A stretch of DNA of 64,000 nucleotides. It comes from an uncultured Phycisphaerales bacterium (GTDB taxonomy: Bacteria > Planctomycetota > Phycisphaerae > Sedimentisphaerales > Anaerobacaceae). The notes below the pieces were generated by a model. It made no database searches and was not told where the DNA came from. It saw only the letters and a list, made by a program, of their open reading frames with translations. The stretch lies in assembly GCA_903857265.1 (NCBI GenBank), contig CAIODZ010000047.1:1-64000 (forward strand). The letters run 5' to 3'. Below are positions 14,423-59,054 of this stretch, piece by piece (within the stretch, counting starts at the first letter, position 1; every line of letters starts with the position of its first letter). Both the position numbers and the translations under genes were made by a program.

Positions 14423-15865
14423 ATGAATCGGTTTGAGAATAAACCAAACAGGTCGGGCCGGATGATATCAGGACCGAATGAGGAAAATCTGCTCAAGTGG
14501 CGCAGACGCAACAGCTATTACTATGGCTGGCTCGACAGGATATACAAATTTGTCGTCCGGCCGAACAGCAGGGTCCTGCACATCGGTTGTGAATGCGGCG
14601 ACCTCCTGGCGGCGGTGAAGCCGGCGTATGGCGTGGGCGTTGATGCCAGCGAAGAGGCAATCGCGCTTGCCCAAAAGCGGTTCCCGCATTTGAATTTTAT
14701 CGCCGCAGACCCCCAGGAATTCCGGCTCAGCGAAAAATTCGATTATGTCCTGATATGCAATTCGCTGGGCGACTGGAAGGATATTCAGCAGGTGTTGGAA
14801 CGAATTCATCCGCTCACCGATGACAACACCAGGATTGTGATTACATATTACAATTATCTCTGGGAATGGGTATTGCGGCTGGGGTCCTCGCTGGGCATTC
14901 GCAAACCTCGCAAGCATCAGAACTGGCTGCCTCCTCAGGATATCGCCAACCTGCTTAATCTCGGCAATTTCGACGTAATCCGCACGGACTCGTTCGTCCT
15001 GCTCCCAAAAGGCATCTGGCTGATTAGTGCATTGTGTAATTATGTCCTTTCGCTGCTGCCGGTTTTTCGAATGTTCAACATGGTCAATCTGGTCATGGCG
15101 AGGCGTTCCGCGCAGCCAAAGTCGGATTTGGATTTGTCGGTGTCGGTGATAGTGCCGTGCAGAAATGAGCGAGGCAATATCGAGGACGCTGTAAAACGCA
15201 TACCCGATATGGGGCGTGAAACCGAGATAATCTTTGTGGATGGCTCCAGCACCGACGGCACAGCCGATGAGATAGAAACCCAGATTAAAAAACACCCCGA
15301 ACGTAAAATCCGGCTGATACATCAGGGCGCGGGTCGCGGCAAAGGGGACGCGGTCAGGAAGGGTTTTGCCGCCGCGGCAGGCGACGTGCTTGTAATCCAG
15401 GATGCTGACCTCACCGCTCCGCCCGAGGATTTGCCTAAATTTTTCGCGGCCCTCCGCGATGGCAAAGGCGAATACATCAACGGTTCGCGGCTTGTATATC
15501 CGATGGAAAAAGAAGCAATGCGATTTTTGAATCTGCTCGCCAATAAATTCTTCGGGGCGTTGTTCTCCTGGCTTCTGGGCCAGCGGTTCAGGGATACGCT
15601 TTGCGGGACAAAAATGATTCGCAAAAGCGATTACGAAGTCATCGCGGCCAACCGCTCGTATTTCGGCGACTTTGACCCGTTTGGCGACTTTGACCTCATA
15701 TTCGGGGCCGTCAAGCAAAACCTCAAGGTGATTGAGGTGCCTGTTAGATATCGCGCGAGGACTTACGGCGAAACAAACATCAGCAGGTTCAGACACGGCT
15801 GGCTTTTGCTTAAAATGAGCTGGATAGCGTTCAAAAAAATAAAATGGCTTGGGAAAGAAAGTTGA
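14423..15865 (+). CDS. Bifunctional SAM-dependent methyltransferase - glycosyltransferase family 2 fusion
   Basis: N-term VLHIGCECGDLLAAVKPAYGVGVDASEEAI (MTase motif I). C-term LSVSVIVPCRNERGNI, DGSSTDGT, IQDADLTAPPEDLP (GT2). Confidence 0.85.
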   Translation: MNRFENKPNRSGRMISGPNEENLLKWRRRNSYYYGWLDRIYKFVVRPNSRVLHIGCECGDLLAAVKPAYGVGVDASEEAIALAQKRFPHLNFIAADPQEFRLSEKFDYVLICNSLGDWKDIQQVLERIHPLTDDNTRIVITYYNYLWEWVLRLGSSLGIRKPRKHQNWLPPQDIANLLNLGNFDVIRTDSFVLLPKGIWLISALCNYVLSLLPVFRMFNMVNLVMARRSAQPKSDLDLSVSVIVPCRNERGNIEDAVKRIPDMGRETEIIFVDGSSTDGTADEIETQIKKHPERKIRLIHQGAGRGKGDAVRKGFAAAAGDVLVIQDADLTAPPEDLPKFFAALRDGKGEYINGSRLVYPMEKEAMRFLNLLANKFFGALFSWLLGQRFRDTLCGTKMIRKSDYEVIAANRSYFGDFDPFGDFDLIFGAVKQNLKVIEVPVRYRARTYGETNISRFRHGWLLLKMSWIAFKKIKWLGKES

Positions 15866-30135: not shown

Positions 30136-31071
30136 TCAATTTATTATTTCTCTTATCTTGTCTTTCACTTTATCTACAAAACTAACCAAATACCTTTTCT
30201 CTGTAAGTTTATCGCTACTGCTATCCCTGCTCATAAATGGCGGATGTCTCAACGGAAACTCCATCGCCTCAACAGGAATATTGGCCGACTTATCGTTTTT
30301 ACAAGAAGTGTGTGTGCCACCTGCACTGAAACCAATATTGGAAATAAGATTAACATTAGGAAGAATAGTTAAACAATTTCGTATCCAACAAGTAAAAGTC
30401 CACTGATAGTCCCAAGTATTTATTTCTCCCTGGTAGGTCATCTCAAATATCCGCATCCAGTAGTGAACCAACTTTTTATTTCCAAGCCAATCCTGCAACC
30501 ATCCATTATCATGTATCTCCGGCCACGACTTCATATCAACATCATAATTCTTCCAGGCGCGACGCCAGGTTGCCCATCCCCATATAAGGGTATAGCGAGA
30601 AAAATAATAGCTGTACTCCGTACGCTTTTTGCCGAATTGAAAATTATCTCCACTTATTTGTCCAATACGCTCATCATCTCGGTACTTATTCAGCAATTCC
30701 TCGCAAAATCTAAAAAATGTCGGATGGGGCAAACAATCATCTTCAAGTATTATCCCTTCCTCTACATGTTCAAAAAACCAATCAATCGCTCGGCTTACTG
30801 CAACTTTACATCCCAGATTTTTGTCTCTGAAAAGCGTTTTAACTTCACAATCCCAGTCAATCCCCTCATTAACAATTCTGCGCACATCTGCACACTTTTC
30901 CGCCTCGCCAGACTTGCCTTCTCGTGGGCCATCCGCTGCTATAAAAAGTTGCGAAGGTTGAGCTTGTCGGATGGCTTCCAATACCCGTCTTGTTGTATCT
31001 GGACGGTTGAAAACCAAGAACAAAACAGGACTCTTTAGCGGCTCTGGAGCAACGAGCACTTTGTTGTTCAC
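30136..31071 (-). CDS. GT2-like/nucleotide-diphospho-sugar transferase-fold glycosyltransferase
   Basis: [61 protein letters not shown]. Confidence 0.85.
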
Positions 31072-32024
31072 GCGGATAGTTCTCCTTTACTCAAAAGTAG
31101 CTCGAAGTAATCGATTGTTTTCTTGAGACCCTCTTCCAACGCTATTTTTGGTTGCCAGCCCAGTTTCTTCTGCGCCAGCGTAATATCTGGGCAGCGCTGC
31201 TTGGGGTCATCGGAAGGCAAATGCTTATACTCTAATTTTGAGCTTGAACCTGTCAGGTCAATGATGTTCTTTGCCAGCTCAAGAATCGTAACCTCATTAG
31301 GATTACCGAGGTTTACTGGACCAACGAAGTCATCTTGCGAATCCATAAAGCTAACGAATGCTGTTATTAGATCGTCAACATAACAAAAGGAGCGTGTTTG
31401 CCTGCCGTCTCCATAAATGGTTATAGGTCTATTCATAAGCGACTGGATTATAAAGTTGGATACCACCCGGCCGTCATTAGGATGCATTCGGGGGCCATAG
31501 GTATTGAAAATACGAGCCACCTTTATTCTCAGTTTGTGTTGTCGATAATAGTCAAAGAACAGGGTTTCTGCACAACGTTTTCCTTCATCATAACACGAAC
31601 GTGTACCGATAGGATTAGCATGTCCCCAGTAACTTTCCGATTGTGGATGTACTTGTGGGTCTCCATATATCTCGCTTGTTGATGCTTGAAATATTTTGGC
31701 TTTCAGCCTTTTAGCCAGCCCCAGCATATTGATAGCACCGTGAACGCTGGTTTTGGTCGTCTGCAAAGGGTCAAACTGATAATGAATCGGAGAAGCGGGA
31801 CAAGCCAGGTTGTATATTTCGGCTACTTCCACATAAAGCGGAAAAGTTACATCGTGGCGCATGGCTTCAAAATTAGGATTCGAAATAAGATGGGCAATAT
31901 TGCTTCTTGTTCCAGTGAAGTAATTGTCAACGCAAAGCACTTCATGTCCTTCTTGCAAAAGCTTTTCACAAAGATGGGACCCAAGAAAGCCTGCTCCGCC
32001 CGTGACTAAAATCTTTTTCATCAT
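31068..32024 (-). CDS. UDP-glucuronate decarboxylase-like extended SDR (UXS), copy 1
   Basis: [76 protein letters not shown]. Confidence 0.9.
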
Positions 32025-41635: not shown

Positions 41636-43873
41636 TTACTGGTTGTTCTGTGCCGTCTTGATTACCGCATAATAAGCCGGCTTGGATTTTAGATTGCGGT
41701 CAAAAAGCAAAGGATAATCCGCTCGCCCCTCGATGGGCCAGCGGTTTAGCCACGATTGACCATCCTGAACCCCCCAGAACGTCACCCGGCTGATTTTGTC
41801 GGCATGCTTGTGAAAAACCGCGAACAATTCCCCGTAACGCTTTGCAAGTTTTTCCTGCACCTCGGCGGGCAGCGTATCGGGATATGGGTTAAATTTTTTC
41901 TGTAACGCGGGGTCATTTTTAATATCACCGTCCGTGCTGCTGTCGTAACAAGGCAATACCGAAACGTCTATTTCTGAAATTATCACCTTGACCCCAGATT
42001 GAGAAAGGGCGACGATGCTGCTCTCTATCGCGTCCGGCGACGGGCTGTAAAGCCCCCAGTGTGCCTGCATCCCTATGCCGTCGATGCGGACGCCCTTCGC
42101 TTTAAGTATGCCGACCAGCCGAACGATACTGTCTATATCTTTTTTGGACCACACATTATAGTCGTTGTAATACAACTCAGCGTTGGGGTCGGCTTCGTGA
42201 GCATATTCGAAGGCCTTCTGGATGTAATCCCTGCCGATGATTTTGCACCATTTTGTTTCGAGCATCTGGCCGTCATTTCCAACGGCCTCGTTGACTACGT
42301 CCCAGCCGTTTATCCGGCCTTTGTACCGGCCAACAACCGTCAATATATGCTCCCGCATACGCTTGAGAAGGACTTCTCGGCTGACCGTTTTGCCGGTGTC
42401 ATCCTGAAACACCCAGTCAGGAATCTGGTACGGGGCGATAAGAACGTGACCTACAATGAACATTTTATTTTTCTCGCCCAGTGTCACATAACTGTCTGCC
42501 ATATCAAAATTATATTTCCCCGGCTCAGGATGAACGTATGACCATTTCAAAAAATGTTCCGGTGTAATCGAGTTGAATTGCGACGGCACCACCGAAAGGT
42601 CATTCGCATCCTTACCGGAAAGCTGATAGCAGTTCAGTGCCGCACCGACGCGAAAATCATTCTTGAAAATGTCCTTGAGCGAATACTGATTGCTGTCCGC
42701 AATTAAATACGTCGATTTGGACGTTGCTTTACATGTTACGGTGCTGCGCATCGGTTCTTCGGCTATACTTCGGGTCATCGGCAGCGTCAGCAGCCCGATT
42801 AAAATAACAACAAGCGCCCCATGAAGATTCAGCTTTGCGTTTTTAGGCGCGGGTCCGTTCAGCATCTTTTTAATGCGTCCAGCAAGCGCGCTCCTCGATT
42901 CGACAACACCTATCGAACGCATACTAAGTACCGGCTGCCCGAAAGCAAATCTCGCAATATTCAAAAGCGTCTCCGGGTAATGAGGCGACTTTTCCCCAAG
43001 AGCTACCTGCACCGCCTCGTCAACCGCCTGCTCACGAACACGCCTTATCATCCAGTTGGCAAGCCATATAAAAGGGTTGTAGAAATAAACAATTTGCAGC
43101 AGCGTCTGAACAAGGTTTACCCATAAATCACTGCGTCTTATATGTGCCAGCTCGTGCATTAACACAATTTTAAACTGCCCGGCATCGAGATTTGCGGTAA
43201 GCCACCGGGGCAAAAGTATAACCGGTCTGAAAAGCCCGCATACCGCCGGACTTGTCGCGTTTGGCGATTCCTTCAGCCCCACACACCCGCCGATGCTCAT
43301 TGTTTTGCGACAGTCCTCAAGCGTATCCCTTATTTCACCGCCGGCTTCCTTTGACTGCCGCACTAAACCCCGGACAAACATCACCCGCTGCATCAGCAAT
43401 AAAAGCATCGCGCCAACAACAATCAACCACAGCAGCAATACTCCCCCTTGCCAGGTTAGTATTTCCGAAGATTCATTTGATTGGATAAGGGATGAAACAG
43501 GCCGCTTCAGCAGAGCAAGCTGCTCTGCGGAAAGTGTATTTAACTGTGATTCGGCTGTAGCGTCAGAAGAAAGCCGGATGCCCGAAATGTTGCCCGCCTG
43601 CGGCTTTCCATGGGAGGCGAGTTTAACTAAGCCCGCCGGCACTATCATAAATTGTCCGATACTCACAGGGCTTGACAACGACGTCGGCAAAACCAGCTTC
43701 ACTATCACCAGCATCCACAGCCCATAGCGGAATACCGCGCCAACTTTTCTTCGCAGTATATAATCCGCCGCCAGCAATATTACCACCAGCATGCCCGACT
43801 GCCACAGCATTGGCCACGCAAACTCCACAAATCCTTTTCCCGCTGAATTTATTAGCTCAAGCACGTTGCTCAT
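41636..43873 (-). CDS. BlaR1-like M56 membrane metallopeptidase fused to a C-terminal GH10 endo-xylanase-like domain
   Basis: M56: HELAHIRRSDLWVNLVQTLLQIVYFYNPFIWLANWMIRRVREQAVDEAV. GH10: FNSITPEHFLKWSYVHPEPGKYNFDMAD, WDVVNEAV (acid/base Glu), YYNDYN, RIDGIGMQAHWG, VIISEIDV (nucleophile Glu), VTFWGVQDGQSWL. One continuous ORF. Confidence 0.93.
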   Translation of the reverse strand: MSNVLELINSAGKGFVEFAWPMLWQSGMLVVILLAADYILRRKVGAVFRYGLWMLVIVKLVLPTSLSSPVSIGQFMIVPAGLVKLASHGKPQAGNISGIRLSSDATAESQLNTLSAEQLALLKRPVSSLIQSNESSEILTWQGGVLLLWLIVVGAMLLLLMQRVMFVRGLVRQSKEAGGEIRDTLEDCRKTMSIGGCVGLKESPNATSPAVCGLFRPVILLPRWLTANLDAGQFKIVLMHELAHIRRSDLWVNLVQTLLQIVYFYNPFIWLANWMIRRVREQAVDEAVQVALGEKSPHYPETLLNIARFAFGQPVLSMRSIGVVESRSALAGRIKKMLNGPAPKNAKLNLHGALVVILIGLLTLPMTRSIAEEPMRSTVTCKATSKSTYLIADSNQYSLKDIFKNDFRVGAALNCYQLSGKDANDLSVVPSQFNSITPEHFLKWSYVHPEPGKYNFDMADSYVTLGEKNKMFIVGHVLIAPYQIPDWVFQDDTGKTVSREVLLKRMREHILTVVGRYKGRINGWDVVNEAVGNDGQMLETKWCKIIGRDYIQKAFEYAHEADPNAELYYNDYNVWSKKDIDSIVRLVGILKAKGVRIDGIGMQAHWGLYSPSPDAIESSIVALSQSGVKVIISEIDVSVLPCYDSSTDGDIKNDPALQKKFNPYPDTLPAEVQEKLAKRYGELFAVFHKHADKISRVTFWGVQDGQSWLNRWPIEGRADYPLLFDRNLKSKPAYYAVIKTAQNNQ

Positions 43874-43912: not shown

Positions 43913-44302
43913 TTACTTTTTTGCTTTTTCCTTCTTGCTTTTTATCATTGCTTCGAGCTGGTTCAGCTCTTCTTCCGTCAAACTTTTACTGTCTAACAGA
44001 AATTGCATCATCGGCGTCATCGCTCCGCCGAATGCCCTTTTGACTGCACGCATAATCTCGCCCCTCTGCGCCTCTTTTTTCGTGATAACAGAGTTGTACA
44101 GGATGAGATTGCGGATTCTTTGTGTCCGCAGCAGTCCCTTGGCGACCATCCGGTCCATCATTGTCTTTACCGTGCTGTAACTCCAGCCGGTTTTCTTTTC
44201 AAGCTCTTCCTGGATTGTCGGCGCGGCACACGGCTCGTTGTCCCACACGGCCTGTATAATCGCCCATTCTCCGGCTGTTAGCTCCGATTGACTTTTTACC
44301 AT
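43913..44302 (-). CDS. blaI: BlaI/MecI/CopY-family transcriptional repressor
   Basis: ELTAGEWAIIQAVWDNEPCAAPTIQEELEKKTGWSYSTVKTMMDRMVAKGLL. Start placed at ATG 44302, preceded by AAGGGG. Confidence 0.92.
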   Translation of the reverse strand: MVKSQSELTAGEWAIIQAVWDNEPCAAPTIQEELEKKTGWSYSTVKTMMDRMVAKGLLRTQRIRNLILYNSVITKKEAQRGEIMRAVKRAFGGAMTPMMQFLLDSKSLTEEELNQLEAMIKSKKEKAKK

Positions 44303-44339
44303 AGTTTGCCCCTTAATTATTTTTATCTGCACAATAGTA

Positions 44340-46421: not shown

Positions 46422-47495
46422 ATGACGACCAAAACCTTAGGCGAACTGGCCCAGTATGTCGGCGGACGCGTCCTCGGCGACGCGAACATCAAGATTCGTT
46501 CCGCCGCGACATTAGGCAGGGCCGGCGAAGGCGATATAAGTTTTCTCAGCAATGACAAATACGAAAAGCAGCTGCTCACGACAAAAGCCAGCGCTGTGAT
46601 TGTCGGCAAGGAAACTGTCGCCGCGGGCGCGGTGCCGCTTTTGGTGGCCGAAGACCCGTATTACGCTTTTATGCAGATTATGGTGCTGCTGCACGGTCAT
46701 CGCAAGCACAAGAAAATCGGCATCAGCCCCCGCGCGATTATTTCCGACAGCGCTAAAGTCGGCGCCGGCTGCCAAATCCACGATTTTGTTACAATCTCCG
46801 ACGGCGCAAAAATAGGCGACGGCTGCGTAATTTATCCCTGCACGTTCATAGGCGAAAATGTTCAGGTAGGTAACGACTGCATCCTGTATCCAAACGTCGT
46901 AATTTACGAGGGGTGTAAAATAGGCAGCCGGGTGATTATCAATTCAAACGCGACAATCGGCGAAGACGGTTTTGGTTTCGCCACGCATAACGGGGCTCAT
47001 CACAAAATACCGCAAATTGGCAGCGTTGTTATAGAGGATGACGTGGAAATAGGCGCCTGCTGCGGGATTGAGCGTGGAACGCTCAACGACACAATCATCG
47101 GGCAGGGAAGTAAACTTGGCGATTTGATTGCTATTGGTCACGGGACAAAGGTCGGGCCTCACTGCCTGCTTGTGGCACAGGTAGGTATCGCCGGCTCAAC
47201 GACACTGGGGCATCACTGTATTCTCGGCGGACAAGCGGGACTCGTCGGACATATTACTATCGGAAACTGTGTCGCAATAGGGGCACAAGCGGGCGTAATC
47301 AATAACGTTTCTGACGGCAAAGTTATATTGGGAGCACCGGCGATAGACGCAAGCCAGGGCAAACGCGCTTACGGTATGATTCAGTATCTTCCTGAGATGA
47401 AACAAAGCATCCGTGAACTTCAGGCGCAGATGAAGCAGCTTTTATCCGGCGGAGAAAATGAACCGTCCCCGGAGGATTCGAAGAATTCCGGTTAA
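46422..47495 (+). CDS. lpxD: UDP-3-O-acylglucosamine N-acyltransferase
   Basis: Hexapeptide-repeat protein with LpxD N-terminal domain. GFGFATHNGAHHKIPQIGSVVIEDDVEIGACCGIERGTLNDTIIGQGSKLGDLIAIGHGTKVG. Confidence 0.93.
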   Translation: MTTKTLGELAQYVGGRVLGDANIKIRSAATLGRAGEGDISFLSNDKYEKQLLTTKASAVIVGKETVAAGAVPLLVAEDPYYAFMQIMVLLHGHRKHKKIGISPRAIISDSAKVGAGCQIHDFVTISDGAKIGDGCVIYPCTFIGENVQVGNDCILYPNVVIYEGCKIGSRVIINSNATIGEDGFGFATHNGAHHKIPQIGSVVIEDDVEIGACCGIERGTLNDTIIGQGSKLGDLIAIGHGTKVGPHCLLVAQVGIAGSTTLGHHCILGGQAGLVGHITIGNCVAIGAQAGVINNVSDGKVILGAPAIDASQGKRAYGMIQYLPEMKQSIRELQAQMKQLLSGGENEPSPEDSKNSG

Positions 47496-47524
47496 CTGTG
47501 GTTTTTTCTCGTTCTGAGAATGAT

Positions 47525-48361
47525 ATGGATAGCGTCAAAGTCGTCGGATTGATTGCGGGTGAAGGCCGACTCCCCTTTATGATAGCGGCCGGGGTAAGGC
47601 AGGCAGGGGGGAAAGTTATTTGCGTCGGCCTTGAAGGAAGCACGGAACAGGCGCTGGCGGATGAGGTGGATGTTTTTTATACGGTGCCGCTGGCCCGGCC
47701 GGGCAACTGGATTCGCAAATTAAAAAGACACGGCGTAACAGGCACGGTTATGGTGGGGCGTGTTGCGAAGGGACGGATTTTCACGCCTTGGCGAATCCTG
47801 AGATACCTGCCCGACTGGCGCGCGGTGCGAATATGGTACTGGCGGCTTCGCAGGAAAAACAAGCAAAACGAAACGCTGCTGTCGGCCCTGGCGGATGAGC
47901 TGGCAAGCGGAGGAATTATCCTGGAAGATTCGACGAAATACTGCAAAGAGCACCTGGCGACAAACGGCCCGATGACCGGACGAGGGCCGAGCGCATCGCT
48001 TGCTGACGACATCGAATTTGGCTGGCCCATCGTAAAAAAAATAGCGGAGATGGACATAGGCCAGGCGATTGCCGTCAAGGAACGGGAAGTTATAGCGGTC
48101 GAGGGGATTGAAGGCACGGCGGATATGATTGAACGCGCGGGTCGGCTTTGCCGGGCGGGCGGCTGGACACTTCTCAAGGCACCCAAAGCAAAAAAGGATA
48201 TGCGGTTCGATGTCCCCTGTGTTGGGCCTGATACAATAAGCTCGCTGGCGAAAAACGGCGCAAAATGCCTTGTGGTCGAAGCAGGCAAAACGATAATCAT
48301 CGACAAGCCCCAGACGCTTGCCCTGGCGGATAAAATGGGAATTTGTGTTATCGGCAAGTAG
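47525..48361 (+). CDS. lpxI: LpxI-type UDP-2,3-diacylglucosamine pyrophosphatase (DUF1009)
   Basis: VGLIAGEGRLPFMIAAGVRQAGGKVICVGLEG, MRFDVPCVGPDTI. Adjacent to lpxD. Start moved to ATG 47525. Confidence 0.88.
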   Translation: MDSVKVVGLIAGEGRLPFMIAAGVRQAGGKVICVGLEGSTEQALADEVDVFYTVPLARPGNWIRKLKRHGVTGTVMVGRVAKGRIFTPWRILRYLPDWRAVRIWYWRLRRKNKQNETLLSALADELASGGIILEDSTKYCKEHLATNGPMTGRGPSASLADDIEFGWPIVKKIAEMDIGQAIAVKEREVIAVEGIEGTADMIERAGRLCRAGGWTLLKAPKAKKDMRFDVPCVGPDTISSLAKNGAKCLVVEAGKTIIIDKPQTLALADKMGICVIGK

Positions 48362-48373
48362 ATTATCAGGCCG

Positions 48374-49360
48374 TTAAGATGCAATCTTACGCTTAATCAG
48401 CGAAACCAATCGGGGAGCCAAAGCATTCAAATCAAAATGGGCTACGGATTGTCTTGCGGCAAGACCCATCTGTATCCTGTGCTGTTCGTTGGCGATAAGA
48501 GAGGAAATTTTTTCAATCCAGTCATCAATAGTTACGGCCAGAAAGCCGTTGAGGCCGTCGCGGACAAGCTCGGCGTTGACGCCAACCGGACTTGCGACAA
48601 CGGGCAGGCCGGCGGCTTGATACTGGAGGATTTTGAAGCCGCATTTACCTCTCGTAAAATTATTGTCGGTCAGCGGCGCAAGACCTATATCGCTTTTAGC
48701 AAGCTCCGTTACTTCAGTTTCCAAAGACCACGGTCGTTTTTCGACGGGGATATTTTGCAGGTCAAAAAATTCATCCGAGATGATTCTAAGGACAACATTA
48801 TCGAAACGTGAGCCGATTTCTTCGAGTGCGGGCGATATTTGTTTTAAATGCGGCAAAGTGGGGCGGCTGCCTATCCAGACGAGACGTATTTTCCCGTCGC
48901 CGGCCTTTTTTGTGGTAGTATTGTAGGCCTTTGTATCAAGGCCGGTGGGCAGGATTTCGACATTCGGATTAAATCTTCTTGCGTATTCGGCCAGATAAAA
49001 GTTACCGGCGATGACAAGGTCAGCAAGCGTCGCGGTTCTTCTGAAAGAAGTTTGCCGTTTGTGGTGGGGCCTTTCGGGGTGTTTGTCATCGAACATTATG
49101 GCGTCGTCGAAGTCATAAATTAGTTTCTTCGCGTATTTCCTAAGATAATAAGCATCGAAGGGGTTCAGTATTTTTTTGTGAAAAAAAACAGCGTCGAAAT
49201 CGTTTGCCTGCATAAACAGCCGGCGACGAGAGATTATCCACTGCGGCAATTGCTCGACACGGCAATCGATGCCACTGGCTCTGAGAATATCGAGGTAAAC
49301 GGCTATTCGCTGCCTGAAACTGGCTCGATTAGTATTATTTGACAGAATCAAAAGTTTCAC
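48374..49360 (-). CDS. Glycosyltransferase (group 1/family 4-like)
   Basis: LIYDFDDAIMFDD, VEILPTGLDTKAYN, IRLVWIGSRPTLPHLKQI, CGFKILQYQAAGLPVVASPVGVNAELV. Confidence 0.87.
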   Translation of the reverse strand: MKLLILSNNTNRASFRQRIAVYLDILRASGIDCRVEQLPQWIISRRRLFMQANDFDAVFFHKKILNPFDAYYLRKYAKKLIYDFDDAIMFDDKHPERPHHKRQTSFRRTATLADLVIAGNFYLAEYARRFNPNVEILPTGLDTKAYNTTTKKAGDGKIRLVWIGSRPTLPHLKQISPALEEIGSRFDNVVLRIISDEFFDLQNIPVEKRPWSLETEVTELAKSDIGLAPLTDNNFTRGKCGFKILQYQAAGLPVVASPVGVNAELVRDGLNGFLAVTIDDWIEKISSLIANEQHRIQMGLAARQSVAHFDLNALAPRLVSLIKRKIAS

Positions 49361-50289
49361 TGTTTATTTCTCCGGGCCGTTACAATCATCGTATCGGCCT
49401 TTTTTAGCCAAGCCGACAGACGAGACAACGGCGAGACAAACATCTTGACCAAAGAAGAGCGGCGAAGCTTATTTTTTGTTGCCGGATGGCAATTATCGCC
49501 GTAAAAAACATATTGCAGCGAGCCAAGCCACCCTTTGGATGATTGTTCATGGCACACATTGACCACATCGAAACCGCATTTTTCGAGCAAGGTGGTAATG
49601 GCGGAAGGGGAAAATATATATAAATGACGGGGGCAGTCCAGATGATACCATTTGTCTTTGAACAACTTTGCGGCGAAACTGTCGTAATTGGGAGTTTTGA
49701 TAAACAGGTAACCGCCTGGTTTACAAAGCGCAAACATTTTTTTAAGGGCCTGTGCCGGGTTATTCATATGTTCGATACAGGACCAGGCGGTAATCAGGTC
49801 AAAGGATTTTTCTTCAAAGGGAGCCGACGTAATTTCCCCGTGGAACACATCAAGGCCATACTGTTTTTTTGCACAGAGGACGGCATTTTCAGAGGTATCG
49901 ACCCCGCTGACCCGACAGTTGCAGAATTGGCGCACCCGGTTGAGAAACTCGCCGTTGCCGCAGCCGATGTCGAGTATGCTCGATTGAGAATTCAGCGTAT
50001 CAAGAATCGTTTTGGGTAAATCCGGTTTTTTATAATTTTTGTTTGTTGACGCAGAGCCGGCCTGATGGGGAGCGTAGTCATCGGGATAAAACCGCGAGAT
50101 ACACTCTGGCGCAATCTGTGGGTTCATATAAACCAGGCCACAATTTTTACACTGAACATATTGAAACTGCCCTTCGAATCCGTGCAGGCGGTCAACCCCC
50201 ATCCGAAACGGTTTGGTATTATTACTTCCGCAGATATTACATAGAACAGGAATTGTCCGGATGTTTTGCGTCATAGGACAGAATTCCAA
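49357..50289 (-). CDS. Class I SAM-dependent methyltransferase with N-terminal CxxC zinc-ribbon-like motif
   Basis: LCNICGSNN...VQCKNCGLVYMNPQI, SILDIGCGNGEFLNRV, DLITAWSCIEHMNNP. Confidence 0.9.
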   Translation of the reverse strand: MEFCPMTQNIRTIPVLCNICGSNNTKPFRMGVDRLHGFEGQFQYVQCKNCGLVYMNPQIAPECISRFYPDDYAPHQAGSASTNKNYKKPDLPKTILDTLNSQSSILDIGCGNGEFLNRVRQFCNCRVSGVDTSENAVLCAKKQYGLDVFHGEITSAPFEEKSFDLITAWSCIEHMNNPAQALKKMFALCKPGGYLFIKTPNYDSFAAKLFKDKWYHLDCPRHLYIFSPSAITTLLEKCGFDVVNVCHEQSSKGWLGSLQYVFYGDNCHPATKNKLRRSSLVKMFVSPLSRLSAWLKKADTMIVTARRNKQ

Positions 50290-51311
50290 GGCGCTTTATA
50301 TGCGCCTTTTTCAACCAGGTCGAGGATATAACCAGCGATTTTGACTCCGTTGAACTGTTCGTGCGTCCATTTCATCCCGGCATCGGCGATTTTTTTTCTT
50401 TCAGTTTCGTGTTCGAGATACCATTTTGCCAGCTCAAAGAACTCTTCGGCTGTGTCAAAATACCGCAGGTGTAAACCGTTTTTGAAAAGCAAATCCGTAT
50501 CCGGCACTTTCTTTGCCAGAACAAAACTGCCGCAGGAAAGGTATTGCGTCAAACGGTTGGAATGATACAGCCGGATGTTGTTGTCGCCGTTTATGCTGAG
50601 GCCGATTTTTGCCCCGCTGATTGCGTATAAATAATCCATACCTCCGATTTTTGGTTTGCCGCAGCAGCCATGAACGACGCAGTTCGGCATTTTGCTAATC
50701 CGGTTGACAATCTCATAACGCAACTCTTCACCCGGGTATCGGCCCGGGTTATGTTCGATGTAGCCGGTCCACAGGATGTCTTTTTTCCATTTGTTTTCGA
50801 CGTCATAGCGATGGTCGATATCCGGGTCGCAGGAGTTGGGCATAAAGACGCATTTGGAGACGCCCGCATCGCGATATGTTTGCAGGTATTCGCCATCGTT
50901 GGTCGCAAGGAGGATATCAAGCTTTTTAGCGGCATCAATTCTTCCCGGGCGCAGTTGCGGCCAGGCATCTCCGTCAAATCCGACCAACACCGCTTTCGGT
51001 GCCGCCTGCCGCATTTGTTCTATGGTCTCCGCATCAAGCATTCTGACGAAACTTATGAATATTATATCCGGCCTGTAATTTTCAATGGCTTTGGCCAGCA
51101 GCGAATCAGCTTTATTTTTGGCAAACAGACGGGCGACGACCCTGTTCCTGAGAGGGCTTAGCCCCATAGCGGTTTCAAAATAACTGAACTGGCGAACATC
51201 GTGCCCCAGACGAATAAATCCCTTAGCTAATTTTATGGGGTTATTTTTAAACATCTGGACCGCGTCAAACCGCAGGTCCGAAACCATAAATATTTTTTTT
51301 ACGTTTGGCAT
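50271..51311 (-). CDS. CgeB-like glycosyltransferase
   Basis: RPDIIFISFVRMLDAETIEQMRQAAPKAVLVGFDGDAWPQ, IRLYHSNRLTQYLSCGSFVLAKKVPDTDLLFKNGLHLRYFDTAEEFFELA. Confidence 0.8.
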   Translation of the reverse strand: MPNVKKIFMVSDLRFDAVQMFKNNPIKLAKGFIRLGHDVRQFSYFETAMGLSPLRNRVVARLFAKNKADSLLAKAIENYRPDIIFISFVRMLDAETIEQMRQAAPKAVLVGFDGDAWPQLRPGRIDAAKKLDILLATNDGEYLQTYRDAGVSKCVFMPNSCDPDIDHRYDVENKWKKDILWTGYIEHNPGRYPGEELRYEIVNRISKMPNCVVHGCCGKPKIGGMDYLYAISGAKIGLSINGDNNIRLYHSNRLTQYLSCGSFVLAKKVPDTDLLFKNGLHLRYFDTAEEFFELAKWYLEHETERKKIADAGMKWTHEQFNGVKIAGYILDLVEKGAYKAPWNSVL

Positions 51312-51518
51312 CAGTTCATAATACTAAGACGCAACGCGATGATAATCAAGCGCAAGGATTGACCCCATACAGAACTTAGGTTAATATCATGGCAACGATT
51401 TGTATGTGTCTAACTTAATGTAAGCTTTTGCACAGAGCCGTAAATATACAGGTTTGGCTTAGAGATATCTTTTATGATTGCGGGCCAATCACGGCGGTTA
51501 TGTGATTGGGGATCGGGT

Positions 51519-52115
51519 ATGAAGAAACATGTTTTCAGATTATTTCTTTTAGATCACTGTATTTACCGGCTATGGCGGATAGTCCGGTGGTTTCAGCGAC
51601 GGGCAGAATCGTGGAGTAATCGTAGATTAATGTCACAACTTGCCTCTTGTGGCAAGGGGGTTGGTTTTTACGGCCGGATAGTTATTCATTCACCAAAAAA
51701 TGTAGTGATAGGCAATAATGTGCACATTGGGGATAACGCTTGGATACAAGGAAATGGAGGGCTGACTGTCGGGGATAATTGTCATATAAGCAGGAATTTT
51801 GTCCTCTACACAGCCAATCATTGTTACGAAGGAGATCGTATTCCCTATGATGAGCAGCTTGTGAAGAAACCAGTTGTCATTGGTCGCAACGTGTGGATAG
51901 GTATGAATGTATGTATCGCGCCGGGCACCAAAATAGGCGATGGCGCCATAATCGGTATGGGTACTGTTGTGTCTGGCGATGTCCCCTCGCGCTCCATTAT
52001 CGGTAGTGAAAAATGGCGTATCCTGGGATATCGGGACAAAGATGAATATGATAAACTTGATAAGAACCAGGAATATGGGGGGCCAGGCGGCATACCGTTC
52101 CACGCAGATGCCTGA
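51519..52115 (+). CDS. LbH-type (hexapeptide) acyltransferase
   Basis: NVVIGNNVHIGDNAWIQGNGGLTVGDNCHI, KKPVVIGRNVWIGMNVCIAPGTKIGDGAIIGMGTVVSGDVPS. Start moved to ATG 51519. Confidence 0.88.
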   Translation: MKKHVFRLFLLDHCIYRLWRIVRWFQRRAESWSNRRLMSQLASCGKGVGFYGRIVIHSPKNVVIGNNVHIGDNAWIQGNGGLTVGDNCHISRNFVLYTANHCYEGDRIPYDEQLVKKPVVIGRNVWIGMNVCIAPGTKIGDGAIIGMGTVVSGDVPSRSIIGSEKWRILGYRDKDEYDKLDKNQEYGGPGGIPFHADA

Positions 52116-52326: not shown

Positions 52327-53613
52327 ATGTGCGGATTATGGAAAACAATACGCAGGACTCTGCGTGACCCTAAGCGATTGCGCCGGGCTATGCTTGAGCA
52401 GATGCCGAACGTTATTCACGCGGGAAATCGCGCCATTGCCACAAGAGTTAAGGAGTGGGACGGGGAATACTTTAAAAAAACATTCGAAAACACGGACATA
52501 GGCAAATCATGTTTTGAGCGGGAGATGGAGGCAGACCGGCTGTTTGGAACCAGGTCATGGAAGCCGCCCATTAAAGATAAGGGGCCGCTTTGGTTTACAA
52601 CGCCGCTATACCCTGAGGAAAAACGACTGGATATTGCTGTTGCGGGATTAGACCAGCCGACCAGAATTGAAATTGCCAGGCAGGCCATATCAATTCTTTT
52701 TGACATCTTTTTTGCGGGATACGCACATCGGGACTTTCAGTCCAAAAACCTGTTTTGGATTGACCAACAACTTATTCTTATTGATTACGAGTGTATCGAG
52801 CCCTATCCGGAAGGGAAACGTCCTCCTTTTGTCCTGTCTTACGACATAACAGGAGAGGGTTTGGAAAGCCCTTTCAAGACAGGAAAGATGTGCTATACAT
52901 GCGAGAAACGGCACGGGGTTTCTGTTCAATGCACCCTGGGAATACCGGCTGAGCAGGCGATTGAAGAGTTCCGCAAGGAATTGAAGAATAAGCTTCGGGA
53001 GGCATGCCTGACTTTCGCAACGGGACAAACGCGACATACTTGTAAGGCCGAGCGAATATATTCGTCTTTTGAGCTGCCGTATTTCCGCGTTATGCCGGAT
53101 GAAGCACAGCGGGATTCATCGATAAGATTCAAGGATTTCGGGATAACCGAAGAAAATATTCGCGGCAAATCAGTAATAGACTTTGGCAGTAATGCGGGAG
53201 GAACGCTCTTCGCGCTGCAAAAGTACAATCCGGCACAGTGCCTTGGGATTGAGTATGATTCGGACAAGGTGCTTATCGCACAGCAAATGGCTGCATACAA
53301 CGGGCTAAATAACGTGAGGTTCATTCAAGGGGACATAGACCTGACAAGCGTACAAGATTTAGGCGGGCCGCATAATGTGGTTTTTTGCCTTGCGGTAGAG
53401 GCACACGTTAAAAATCCGGAGAAGCTCTTTGGGCTTCTTTCCCAGGTAACGACTGAAGTTTTATTCTTCGAGGGGAATTCGACAACCAATCCCAAAAAGG
53501 CAAAAAAGGCCTTGACCGAGGCGGGATTCCGTGACGTCAGTATATTGGGCACATCGAGAGACGATGTACTTGCCAGTAATAATTGCAGACCTTTGCTGAT
53601 AGCTACAAAATAA
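52327..53613 (+). CDS. Kinase-like (LPS-kinase/RIO-type fold) - SAM methyltransferase fusion
   Basis: Kinase: FKKTFE...CFEREMEADRLFG, GYAHRDFQSKNLFWIDQQLILIDYECI. MTase: GKSVIDFGSNAGGTLFALQKYNPAQCLGIEYDSDKVLIAQQMAAYNGLNNVRFIQGDI. Confidence 0.83.
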   Translation: MCGLWKTIRRTLRDPKRLRRAMLEQMPNVIHAGNRAIATRVKEWDGEYFKKTFENTDIGKSCFEREMEADRLFGTRSWKPPIKDKGPLWFTTPLYPEEKRLDIAVAGLDQPTRIEIARQAISILFDIFFAGYAHRDFQSKNLFWIDQQLILIDYECIEPYPEGKRPPFVLSYDITGEGLESPFKTGKMCYTCEKRHGVSVQCTLGIPAEQAIEEFRKELKNKLREACLTFATGQTRHTCKAERIYSSFELPYFRVMPDEAQRDSSIRFKDFGITEENIRGKSVIDFGSNAGGTLFALQKYNPAQCLGIEYDSDKVLIAQQMAAYNGLNNVRFIQGDIDLTSVQDLGGPHNVVFCLAVEAHVKNPEKLFGLLSQVTTEVLFFEGNSTTNPKKAKKALTEAGFRDVSILGTSRDDVLASNNCRPLLIATK

Positions 53614-53638: not shown

Positions 53639-54652
53639 TTATCTTTTTCGGTTTTTTGCCGGTGACTTTTTAGTCGGTATATACGATTTTATGGGCAGCG
53701 ACGGACGCGATTCTTTTTTACTCAGGAGGCGGTCAAAGTAATCGATAGTTTTTTTCAAACCTTCCCGCAAGGGAACTGCCGGCTGCCAGTCGAGGTTCTT
53801 TTTTGCGAGTGTTATATCAGGGCACCGCTGCCTGGGGTCGTCAGAAGGTAACGGCTTACGCACTAATTTGGAATGGGAGCCAACGAGGTCGATAACGGCT
53901 TGCGCCAGTTCGAGAATGGTGTTTTCAGTTGGATTGCCGAGATTGACTGGGCCTGTGAAATCATCGGGGGTATCCATCAGGCGAATAAAGGCCTCAATCA
54001 GGTCGTCAACGTAACAAAACGAGCGGGTTTGTGAGCCGTCGCCGTAAATGGTTATAGGTTCGTTTTTGAGTGCCTGTATTATGAAATTCGAGACGACCCT
54101 GCCGTCGTTGGGGTGCATCCGCGGGCCATAAGTATTAAAAATTCGAGCGACTTTTATGCGTAGCTTGTGCTGTCGGTAATAATCGAAAAACAGCGTTTCT
54201 GCGCAGCGTTTACCCTCGTCGTAACAGGAACGAATGCCTATAGGATTAGTATGGCCCCAGTAGGATTCGGTTTGCGGGTGAACGTCGGGGTCGCCATAGA
54301 CCTCGCTTGTGGAGGCCTGAAAAATTTTGGCCTTGATGCGTTTGGCCAACCCTAACATATTTATGGCGCCGTGGACGCTTGTCTTTGTGGTTTGGACCGG
54401 GTCAAACTGGTAATGAATGGGCGAGGCGGGACAGGCGAGGTTGTAAATTTCATCTACCTCGACATACAGCGGAAAAGTTACATCGTGACGCATAATTTCG
54501 AAACGGGGATTGTCCATAAGGTGGGCGACGTTGTCTTTTCTTCCTGTGAAGTAGTTGTCAACGCAGAGGACATCGTTTCCGGCCTTTAGAAGACGCTCGC
54601 AGAGATGTGAGCCAAGAAAACCCGCTCCGCCTGTAACAAGAATCCGTTTCAT
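53639..54652 (-). CDS. UDP-glucuronate decarboxylase-like extended SDR (UXS), copy 2
   Basis: Very similar to 31068-32024 over its full length. Start moved to ATG 54652 ([22 protein letters not shown]). Confidence 0.9.
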
Positions 54653-54807
54653 TGTTCGACCTTCTATAACCTTTTTAATTATGAACCACAATCGTCCGGC
54701 GGTTATTATATCTTGCGCGCCGGCAAAAACCAATAGGGAATTGACTGCTTTGGTGCTGTTGCCTACAATGACTGGACTTGAAAATTATTTAACCTGAGGA
54801 CAGTCAA

Positions 54808-55650
54808 ATGCCCCAGCAAAAAGAGCCGCTTGTAACGATTTGTATGCCTCACTGGCAGGTGCAGGAGCTGATAACGCTTTGCCTGCGGGCGATTCGTAAG
54901 TTTACCACTAAAATACCGATTGAGGTAATCGTGGTGGATAACGGCTCAGAGGATGAATCGCTGGATTATCTTCGGGGGCTTAAATGGATACGATTGATAG
55001 AACGGCGCAAACAGGACCTTCCTGCGTTCTGGGTGGACGGTTTCGTTTCGGCGCTGGACATTGGCTTTGCCAACAGCCACAGCGAGTATTTCATTATTAT
55101 GCACACGGATACCATTGTAAGGCATCCGGGGTGGCTGGAGAGGATGCTTGAGCCGATGCAGAATGACCCGAAGTGTGCTGCGTCAGGGGCGTGGAAACTT
55201 GAGTTAAGAAATCCGCTGAATGAGTTTTTAAGAAAAATCACCGATACCAAAAAGGCGCAGCTCTGGTTCAAGAGGACTTTCCTTGGAGACCAAAAAGCCA
55301 GACAGCGGCCGCGTGAGTTATGCCCGCGTGATTACTGTGCGCTTTATCGCTCGGAACCAATAAGACGACTTGGGCTTCATTTTGATTCCGCGGGCAAGTA
55401 CAAGGGTTACACCGCGGGCGAACAGATGTATTATCAGCTCAAGGAAAACGGCTATCACGCCTCGGTGATTGATACCGTCGAGATGATGAAATATATGGTT
55501 CACCTCGCGCACGCTACCGCTGGTCTGCGACCTGCCGAACGACGCCTGGGACACTTGCGGGCACAGGTAAAGGCGGAATATAAAATCCGCCGGCTTTTCA
55601 ATTCGAATCTGGCGAAAGAGTTGATGGAAGATACGAGTTTGGACCAGTAA
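54808..55650 (+). CDS. Glycosyltransferase family 2
   Basis: LVTICMPHWQVQELITLCLRAIRKFTTKIPIEVIVVDNGSEDESLDYL, FIIMHTDTIVRHPGWLERML. Confidence 0.88.
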   Translation: MPQQKEPLVTICMPHWQVQELITLCLRAIRKFTTKIPIEVIVVDNGSEDESLDYLRGLKWIRLIERRKQDLPAFWVDGFVSALDIGFANSHSEYFIIMHTDTIVRHPGWLERMLEPMQNDPKCAASGAWKLELRNPLNEFLRKITDTKKAQLWFKRTFLGDQKARQRPRELCPRDYCALYRSEPIRRLGLHFDSAGKYKGYTAGEQMYYQLKENGYHASVIDTVEMMKYMVHLAHATAGLRPAERRLGHLRAQVKAEYKIRRLFNSNLAKELMEDTSLDQ

Positions 55651-55677: not shown

Positions 55678-56691
55678 TCACCTGTTCTTGTACATCGAAT
55701 CGTAATACTTCTGGTAATCGCCTGATACCACGTTGGCAAGCCAGTTGCGGTTTGCCAGATACCAGTCAATTGTCTTGACGATACCCTGCTCGAAAGATAC
55801 CGAGGGCTTCCAGTTTAGCTTGTTGATTATTTTTGAAGCGTCGATGGCGTATCGCCTATCGTGGCCGGGGCGGTCGGTAACGTGTTTGATTAGTGATTCC
55901 GGTTTGCCCAGGCGGCCAAGTATCAGCCGGACGACGTCGATGTTGGCTTTCTCGTTGCAGCCGCCGATGTTATAAATTTCTCCTGGTGCCGCTTCAGTCA
56001 GGACCTTCCAGATTGCGGTGCAATGGTCATAAACATAAAGCCAGTCGCGGATTTGCATACCGTCGCCGTAAACGGGAAGCTGTTTGTCGTTCAGCGCGTT
56101 ATTTATCATCAGCGGGATGAGCTTTTCGGGGAATTGATAAGGTCCGTAGTTGTTCGAGCAGCGGGTGATATTGTATTGGACGCCGAAAGTATGTCCGAAT
56201 GCGCGGACGAGAAGGTCTGCCGATGCCTTACTGGCTGAATACGGCGAGTTTGGGCTAAGCGGCGTATCCTCCGTAAACATACCTTCGCGCCCAAGGGCGC
56301 CATAAACCTCATCGGTTGAAATCTGGACGAATTGCCGGAGTTTCTTGTCTCTTGTCGCCTCAAGAAGCGTCAATGTCCCTGTAACGTTGGTTTCGATAAA
56401 AATTTTCGGCTCTGATATCGAACGGTCAACATGGCTTTCAGCGGCAAAGTTCACGATCGAGTCGATTTTGAATTCGTCGATGATACGCTCGATAAGTTTG
56501 GCGTCGCAGATATCGCCTTTTATGAATTTATGATTCTTGTTATTTTCAAAGCCGGCGAGATTTTCAAGATTGCCCGCATAAGTCAGCTTGTCGAGATTGA
56601 CGACGAAACAATCCGGTTGTTCGGAAAGAATCATCCTCACGAAATTACTGCCGATAAAGCCGGCTCCGCCTGTAACGAGTAATTTTCTCAT
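55678..56691 (-). CDS. rfbB: dTDP-glucose 4,6-dehydratase
   Basis: [79 protein letters not shown]. Confidence 0.96.
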   Translation of the reverse strand: MRKLLVTGGAGFIGSNFVRMILSEQPDCFVVNLDKLTYAGNLENLAGFENNKNHKFIKGDICDAKLIERIIDEFKIDSIVNFAAESHVDRSISEPKIFIETNVTGTLTLLEATRDKKLRQFVQISTDEVYGALGREGMFTEDTPLSPNSPYSASKASADLLVRAFGHTFGVQYNITRCSNNYGPYQFPEKLIPLMINNALNDKQLPVYGDGMQIRDWLYVYDHCTAIWKVLTEAAPGEIYNIGGCNEKANIDVVRLILGRLGKPESLIKHVTDRPGHDRRYAIDASKIINKLNWKPSVSFEQGIVKTIDWYLANRNWLANVVSGDYQKYYDSMYKNR

Positions 56692-56706
56692 ATCCTTTGA
56701 CTCCGC

Positions 56707-57591
56707 TCAGGACTGGGCCTGTTTAAGGAATTCCTCTAAAGATACCTGCCAGGGTTTAATCGGGCCGTTGAGCAAGGGCCTTATTTTGCTGCAATCGAAT
56801 CTGCTGTTTAACGGCCTGGCCGCCGCGGAAGGAAAATCACTGGTTTTGCATGGGGCCAGTTGAACGCCGAGATTAAGCTTTTCTGCAATAAACCGGGCGA
56901 CTTCGAGCCGGCTGGCGTATCTCTGGCTCGCGAAATGGTATATGCCCGTCGGTTTTTTGCTGATGAGGTCGCAAATGGCCCTGGCGGCCTCGGTTGTCGC
57001 GGTAGGCGAGCCGATCTGGTCATCGACAACCTTCATTTCCTTTTGCCCGGCTTCGCCCGGCTTCGCCGAGGCGAGCGTCCGCGCCTTTTGAATAATTTTA
57101 TTTATGAAATTATCGCCGTTGCGCCCGTAAGTCCACTCGACCCGCATGATACAGTAATGGCAGTGGTTTTCAGTCAGCAGACGCTCGCCCGCAAGCTTGG
57201 TTCTGCCGTAAGCATTTATCGGATGCGGAATGTCCTTCTCGGTATATGGTTTATCGGAGGTGCCGTCGAAAACAAAATCGGTGCTTATATGAAGGACCCA
57301 TGCGTCTGATTTTCTCGCGGATAAGGCGAGCATCCTTACGGCCTCGGCGTTGACGCGAAACGCAAGCTCGGTTTCAGTCTCGGCTTTTTCAACATTGGTA
57401 TAAGCGGCACAATTAACTATCGTATGAGCCGGATGAATTAAGCTGAGCAGTTGGTGTTCATTTGTAATGTCGAACTCCGGCAGGTCAAACACCTCGTAAT
57501 CGATGCCCCGGCTTTTGCACTCCGACGCGACGTCTGTGCCTAACATTCCCTTGCCACCGAGTATGATTATTTTATCCGGAGAGTTGCTCAT
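56707..57591 (-). CDS. rfbD: dTDP-4-dehydrorhamnose reductase
   Basis: IIILGGKGMLGTDVASEC, TIVNCAAYTNVEKAETE, HISTDFVFDGTSDKPYTEKD, YGRTKLAGERLL. Confidence 0.94.
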   Translation of the reverse strand: MSNSPDKIIILGGKGMLGTDVASECKSRGIDYEVFDLPEFDITNEHQLLSLIHPAHTIVNCAAYTNVEKAETETELAFRVNAEAVRMLALSARKSDAWVLHISTDFVFDGTSDKPYTEKDIPHPINAYGRTKLAGERLLTENHCHYCIMRVEWTYGRNGDNFINKIIQKARTLASAKPGEAGQKEMKVVDDQIGSPTATTEAARAICDLISKKPTGIYHFASQRYASRLEVARFIAEKLNLGVQLAPCKTSDFPSAAARPLNSRFDCSKIRPLLNGPIKPWQVSLEEFLKQAQS

Positions 57592-58175
57592 TTGTTTTCC
57601 CCGTATCGTGGCCCTTCGACTTTGCTCAGGACAGGCAGTTTGTCTTTAGGAATGTCCTTGAGCCGGGGATAACCGGCATCCTTCTTCGAAACCAGCGGGG
57701 CGTTAATCGGCCAGGTAATTCCAATGTCCGGGTCATTCCAGATTATACCGCCCTCGGTTGTCGGGCTGTAGTAGTCGGTGCATTTATAAGAAAATAACGC
57801 GGTGTCACTTACTACGCAAAAACCGTGTGCAAAACCAGGCGGGATATACATCTGTTTGTGATTTTCCGCCGATAGCGTTTCGCCGAACCACTGTCCGAAA
57901 TTCGGCGAGCCGACGCGAATATCGACCGCCACGTCAAGAACCTCGCCGGATAATACCTGCACTAATTTGCCCTGTGCGTGAGGATTTTGAAAGTGGAGAC
58001 CCCGCAGGGCGCCCTTTGTCGAAAATGAGACGTTATCCTGCACAAACGGCTGACTCAATCCCGCTTCTTCATAGCGTTTGCCGCTGAATGTTTCGATAAA
58101 AAAACCGCGTGCGTCGCCGAAAACATCGGGTTCAATAATCAGCACACCGGGAAGTTTCGTCTGTGTAACTTTCAT
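57588..58175 (-). CDS. rfbC: dTDP-4-dehydrorhamnose 3,5-epimerase
   Basis: GVLIIEPDVFGDARGFFIETFSGKRYEEAGL, FVQDNVSFSTKGALRGLHFQNP, YIPPGFAHGFCV. Confidence 0.95.
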   Translation of the reverse strand: MKVTQTKLPGVLIIEPDVFGDARGFFIETFSGKRYEEAGLSQPFVQDNVSFSTKGALRGLHFQNPHAQGKLVQVLSGEVLDVAVDIRVGSPNFGQWFGETLSAENHKQMYIPPGFAHGFCVVSDTALFSYKCTDYYSPTTEGGIIWNDPDIGITWPINAPLVSKKDAGYPRLKDIPKDKLPVLSKVEGPRYGENK

Positions 58176-59054
58176 TCAGCGGCACTCATTCACAAGATTA
58201 AGCAGGTATTGCCCATACCAGTTTTTGGCTAAAGGTTCCGCGAGTTTGGTCAATTGTTTGGCGTCGATAAGGCCGAGGTGAAACGCTATTTCTTCGGGGC
58301 AGGCAATCATCAGTCCTTGTCTTTGCTGGACGGTCTGGACAAAATTTGCGGCCTGAAGCATTGATTCCGGTGTGCCCGTATCGAGCCAGGCGATCCCGCG
58401 TCCCAGCAATTCGACTTTAAGTTTGTTGATTTTAAGATAAGCGTTATTGAGGTCGGTGATTTCGTACTCGCCCCTGGCGGAGGGTTTGATGGTCGCGGCG
58501 ATGTCGCAGACCTGCGAATCGTAGAAGTAAAGACCCACGGCTGCGTAATTGGATTTCGGTTTTTTGGGTTTTTCCTCGATTGATATTACATTGCCGGTTT
58601 TGTCAAACTCAATAACGCCATACCGCTGCGGGTCCCTGACCCAGTAGCCGAATATCGATGCGCCGCCTTCACTGCTGACTGCCTTTTTTAGCGAATCGAC
58701 AAGCCCGTGGCCGTAAAAGATATTATCGCCGAGAATCAAACACGCCGGGCTGCCCGTGAGGAATTTTTTACCGATTATAAACGCCTGGGCGAGTCCTTCT
58801 GGCCTTGGCTGTTCTGCGTATTCGAGCCGGATACCCCACTGTGAGCCGTCGTCGAGAACTTTTTTATACATAGGCAGGTCGGTGGGTGTGCTGATTACGA
58901 GAATCTCTTTTATTCCCGCCAGCATCAGCGTCGTCAGCGGATAATAAATCATCGGCTTATCATATATCGGGATAAGTTGCTTGCTTATGGCCTTTGTTAC
59001 AGGGTGCAGCCGAGTGCCGCTCCCGCCCGCTAAGATTATGCCTTTGTAGCTCAT
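58176..59054 (-). CDS. rfbA: Glucose-1-phosphate thymidylyltransferase
   Basis: [58 protein letters not shown]. Confidence 0.96.

Follow-up and report, generated by a model that had tools for sequence, protein, structure and literature searches.

The gene examined here, which lies in a variable surface-glycan cassette of an uncultured Phycisphaerales bacterium, encodes a fusion of an N-terminal protein-kinase-like domain and a C-terminal class I methyltransferase. The initial annotation of the window (the entire 64,000-nucleotide stretch of DNA analysed) had described such a fusion, with a domain order opposite to that of the O-antigen protein WbdD. This observation was confirmed, and the reversed order was seen in all five sequences of the family alignment, which comprised the window protein, one sequence from Shouchella tritolerans and three from a second Shouchella genome, and thus represented two lineages. 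The fusion is predicted, with a probability of about 0.5, to phosphorylate a surface-glycan sugar and afterwards to methylate the phosphate; the sugar substrate, the methylation of phosphate, the order of the steps and the acceptor are all inferences. Coordinates of the gene, its domains and its neighbours are listed in Table 1.

Table 1. Position and basis of assignment of the kinase-methyltransferase fusion, its domains and the surrounding glycan genes in the window.
Feature	Position	Strand	Basis and remarks
Kinase-methyltransferase fusion (P0001)	52327..53613	+	ATG start, 428 aa; ORF and full-length relatives with same domain order
Kinase domain	52405..53013, residues 27-229 (about 27-230)	+	K51, E66, H134-R-D136-x4-N141, D153; PDB profile, AlphaFold/Foldseek, hhalign versus WbdD kinase
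Class I methyltransferase domain and lead-in	53014..53613, residues 230-428 (methyltransferase about 244-428)	+	D285-x-G287, E309, D336, H360, R421; Pfam, AlphaFold, Foldseek, hhalign versus WbdD methyltransferase
lpxD-lpxI (lipid A), conserved left flank of cassette	46422..48361	+	Pfam LpxD, LpxI; about 91% identical in G001 and G002
Glycosyltransferase group 1	48374..49360	-	Pfam; 60% identical copy in G002
Separate class I methyltransferase	49357..50289	-	Pfam Methyltransf_23
Glycosyltransferase (Glyco_trans_1_2)	50271..51311	-	Pfam; relatives in G001 and G003
Hexapeptide acyltransferase, upstream of fusion, variable cassette	51474..52115	+	Pfam Hexapep; 74% identical copy in congener G001
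UDP-xylose-synthase-like SDR (UXS)	53639..54733	-	Pfam Epimerase/GDP_Man_Dehyd; UXS name by sequence resemblance
GT2 glycosyltransferase	54808..55650	+	Pfam Glycos_transf_2
rmlB-rmlD-rmlC-rmlA (dTDP-rhamnose), conserved right flank	55678..59054	-	Translations; names by sequence resemblance; 83-94% identical in G002

The kinase and methyltransferase motifs from which the fusion had originally been recognized were found in the translated ORF as described, with HRD-x4-N at residues 134-141 (H134-R135-D136-x4-N141), IDYE at residues 152-155 (within L151-I-D153-Y-E155) and VIDFGSNAGG at residues 283-292 (V283 to G292). When the window protein was searched alone, Methyltransf_31 was the sole Pfam domain found (E = 2.6e-11, well above chance), and the kinase was undetected by Pfam at E < 1. 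A profile of the five family members matched MELK kinase structures among the PDB sequences (E = 3e-9 to 8e-10), and the Pfam model Pkinase matched four of the five members (best E-value 8.6e-7). The AlphaFold model of the kinase domain (pLDDT 82) was kinase-like, and Foldseek matched it to kinase folds, including IRAK4 (E about 2e-7, TMq 0.55-0.59). K51, E66, H134, D136, N141 and D153 were invariant in all five members, while R135 of the HRD motif was replaced by Cys in one of them. The features that mark the protein-kinase-like superfamily were all present: a VAIK-type Lys, an alpha-C Glu, HxD-x4-N, a metal-binding Asp and, in the predicted model, a bilobal fold.

In the methyltransferase domain, D285, G287, G291, E309 and D336 were invariant in all five members. 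The full-length AlphaFold model (pLDDT 75) was matched by Foldseek to the class I methyltransferases CmoB, EvdMO1 and Rv2258c, and its chain stopped at residue 428, immediately behind the final methyltransferase strand.

WbdD (E. coli O9a and Klebsiella O3; PDB 4azs, 4ax8; PMC3482155) likewise combines a class I methyltransferase and a protein-kinase-like domain in one polypeptide, with catalytic kinase residues and a glycan setting. E. coli HS WbdD (O9), a WbdD-like protein of an O99-type locus and the O8 methyltransferase were retrieved for comparison. Direct BLASTP of the window protein against WbdD gave no meaningful alignment, and the relationship was visible by profiles only. In hhalign, the family methyltransferase aligned with that of WbdD throughout the domain (E about 2e-7), and the family kinase aligned with the WbdD kinase at the catalytic loop (E = 1.1e-5), with the metal-binding Asp also aligned. 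When the PDB sequences were searched by profile, WbdD entries alone, among the 60 matches listed, had two separate matched stretches. Identity between the methyltransferase domains was only about 20%.

Methylation of phosphate by WbdD requires Y16, H132, H133 and R203; of these, R203, H132 and H133 are credited with phosphate handling, and an additional pocket includes R31 and R36 (PMC3482155). In the hhalign alignment, Y245, R262, R267, H360 and R421, invariant in the five members, were found opposite WbdD Y16, R31, R36, H133 and R203, respectively, whereas the position of H132 was occupied by Ala or Ser. Replacement of R203 by Ala abolishes methylation by WbdD and leaves its phosphorylation intact. 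The same alignment procedure was applied to a null set of 21 other class I methyltransferases encoded in DNA retrieved for the analysis. Under permissive alignment, one of the 21 (L009) matched all five WbdD-aligned positions, and His at position 360 was common in other class I methyltransferases. After the alignments had been filtered by confidence, only WbdD O9 was aligned at the two domain ends and had R, R, H and R at the respective positions; WbdD O9 and O99 had been chosen deliberately and were not random members of this comparison. As proof of phosphate methylation the residue match is weakened by the null set, in which L009 matches too; it is suggestive of this activity and supports it short of proof.

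The main alternative, which is judged unlikely but is the best placed of those considered, is that the protein combines a glycan kinase with a sugar O-methyltransferase, the two acting at different positions of one glycan and leaving one phosphate and one O-methyl group. This reading shares the glycan context, and it is favoured by the loss of WbdD H132 and by the methyltransferase profile, which scored METTL5, UbiG and YcgJ above WbdD by sequence and was closer to such generic enzymes. However, R421, R262, R267 and H360 match WbdD positions. In addition, the fusion is conserved across distant bacteria and both domains are retained in tandem copies, and these two observations together suggest that the kinase and methyltransferase steps are coupled.

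Full-length relatives of the fusion were very rare and patchily distributed. When about 85,000 species genomes were scanned for exact peptide patterns, an insensitive method that may have missed further relatives, a single one was found, in S. tritolerans; it aligned over almost its full length at 41% identity (about 40% over 418 residues). Searching 399 genomes of Shouchella's order by profile added one more genome, likewise of Shouchella, in which three copies stood in tandem, so that two of the 13 Shouchella genomes examined carried the fusion; these two were the only other genomes in which it was found. Among 399 further genomes of Shouchella's class, none but S. tritolerans itself had it. 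No full-length match was found in 60 relatives of the window genome, and none other than the protein itself in samples of its phylum (392 genomes) and class (298 genomes), which included its own genome. Weak matches in the phylum sample, in genome G030 and in the class-wide profile search each covered a single domain and were dismissed as generic methyltransferases or kinases. The rare and patchy distribution suggests horizontal transfer of the fusion gene. An origin in phages or plasmids was rejected: no relative was found in phages, plasmids gave only generic methyltransferase-level matches, and viral contigs gave either no match or one at the methyltransferase level only.

In both Shouchella genomes, one copy formed the C-terminal half of a protein of 785-787 aa whose N-terminal half was a GT2 glycosyltransferase with TPRs. 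This coupling to a GT2-TPR glycosyltransferase gives a separate, independent indication of a sugar substrate. The S. tritolerans gene was surrounded by genes for collagen-like repeat proteins and by further GT2-TPR genes, and the second genome had two standalone copies in tandem with the GT2-TPR-fused copy. The kinase-methyltransferase module, tethered in this way, would probably modify the sugar added by its glycosyltransferase, and the collagen-like surface proteins are plausible acceptors. A literature search returned nothing relevant on a kinase-methyltransferase tied to GT2-TPR proteins or exosporium glycosylation. A second fusion, methyltransferase-GT2-TPR, was observed in the S. tritolerans locus (L002, 11385-13004, +), which suggests that GT2-TPR proteins of this locus often carry tailoring domains.

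A substrate other than a glycan (a protein, peptide or small molecule), with the gene placed in the cassette by chance, appears improbable. In its favour, the kinase profile gave its top scores to eukaryotic protein kinases and weak ones to LanKC and APH, and the three copies of the second Shouchella genome were not within an obvious polysaccharide cluster. Against it stand two independent links to glycans: two genomes carry a copy fused to GT2-TPR, and the window gene lies in a sugar cassette.

The placement of the gene among glycosyltransferase, acyltransferase and UXS-like genes, noted in the initial annotation, was borne out by the Pfam assignments of its neighbours. The cassette lies between lpxD-lpxI and rmlBDCA-pheS and is swapped between species: in three congeners the flanks were kept (lpxI 74-92%, rmlB 87-94% identity) and the interior differed. 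Congener G001 retained the neighbouring glycosyltransferase (82%) and acyltransferase (74%), and its cassette was without the kinase-methyltransferase, UXS and GT2 genes, in place of which it had a nucleotidyltransferase and a CDP-glycerol glycerophosphotransferase (E = 1e-63). In sister genome G003, a Kdo/WaaP-type kinase gene directly followed lpxI. Judged by these family names, phosphate-type decoration may recur in the cassette by means of different enzymes. The G001 genes (L052, 1949-3936, -) encode a teichoic-acid-like pair of enzymes and lie next to genes for lipid A. The protein encoded by the G003 gene (L053, 1987-3417, +) is 476 aa long, and two stretches of it are of the Kdo/WaaP kinase type.

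The Kdo/WaaP-type LPS kinases (PF06293) resemble the fusion, as predicted here, in being bacterial, protein-kinase-like sugar kinases; unlike the fusion, they have no methyltransferase. The window protein did not match PF06293 at E < 1. Four of the five family members gave a weak match (best E-value 3.2e-4), and the S. tritolerans protein, for which the Pfam cut-off was checked, stayed below it, with 19.8 bits against a curated threshold of 21.3.

In the preferred reading, the kinase domain would phosphorylate a sugar hydroxyl of an oligosaccharide, either during its growth or after its completion. The target is probably an LPS-type oligosaccharide assembled by the rhamnose/xylose glycosyltransferases of the neighbouring cassette, with the phosphate placed at its non-reducing end or close to it. 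The methyltransferase would then methylate the sugar phosphate, yielding a methyl-phosphate decoration. The protein would act as a decorator or a cap without a molecular ruler.

The initial annotation had gone further and proposed a possible polysaccharide chain-length capping enzyme of the WbdD type; the linkage to ABC-type O-antigen export for which it had suggested a check was looked for, with a negative result. The WbdD-like part of this proposal stood, in that both domains aligned with those of WbdD in reversed order; the capping part did not. WbdD depends on a coiled-coil ruler and a C-terminal polymerase-recruiting region, and its partner ABC exporter recognises the capped glycan via a carbohydrate-binding module (PMC3482155, PMC11231755). 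In the AlphaFold model of the fusion, the longest helix comprised 26 residues (208-233) and closed the kinase domain, and the chain ended after the last methyltransferase strand, with neither a coiled-coil ruler nor a C-terminal membrane- or polymerase-binding region. The window genome (94% complete) contained no Wzt C-terminal carbohydrate-binding domain (PF14524) and no Wzm/Wzt-type exporter was found in it; both of its ABC2 permease (PF01061) loci were unrelated to polysaccharide, and the exporter-like gene elsewhere in the window was a Wzx-type flippase. At this completeness, the evidence for absence of the exporter is strong but not absolute. A true WbdD-type terminator coupled to an ABC O-antigen exporter, to which the joining of both enzymes in a single protein, encoded among polysaccharide genes, and the domain-level similarity to WbdD had pointed, is therefore very improbable and was discarded on protein architecture and genome content.

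The fusion is predicted to work like the catalytic half of WbdD and, on the features tested, falls outside the WbdD terminator family. The E. coli O8 WbdD, which performs methylation only, is also a glycan methyltransferase of the same pathway type; unlike the fusion, it has no kinase and, in a MAFFT alignment, no counterparts of R203 and H133. By its published description, the Klebsiella O7 terminator ORF6 (PMC11231755) resembles the proposed role of the fusion, since its methyltransferase and kinase place methyl-phosphate on a rhamnose terminus, but it differs in having the methyltransferase first, an AmiN-like kinase, a predicted CBM, a coiled-coil and GT modules. A few O-antigen terminators are known to add methyl-phosphate caps, and in the descriptions consulted (PMC3482155, PMC11231755) each of them has the methyltransferase first and bears a ruler. 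More tentatively, the fusions may constitute a separate, order-reversed and ruler-less family that installs methyl-phosphate on LPS-type glycans in the window organism and, via GT2-TPR, on sugars of collagen-like proteins in Shouchella. If the preferred reading is true, unrelated bacteria would possess a version with reversed order and no ruler, in one case fused directly to a glycosyltransferase. Methyl-phosphate chemistry would then be independent of chain-length control, and a specific glycan modification of +94 Da would be detectable by mass.

Several other features of the window were observed. Two UXS-like paralogues (31068-32024, -, and 53639-54733, -) occurred in two separate glycan clusters, and a methyltransferase-GT2 fusion protein was encoded at 14423-15865 (+). 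A 745-aa protein (41636-43873, -) combined a BlaR1 peptidase M56 domain (E = 2.4e-43) with a complete GH10 xylanase domain (E = 3.7e-87) and adjoined a BlaI/penicillinase-repressor-like regulator (43913-44332, -). It resembles a BlaR1-like sensor with a xylanase where the penicillin-binding sensor would be.
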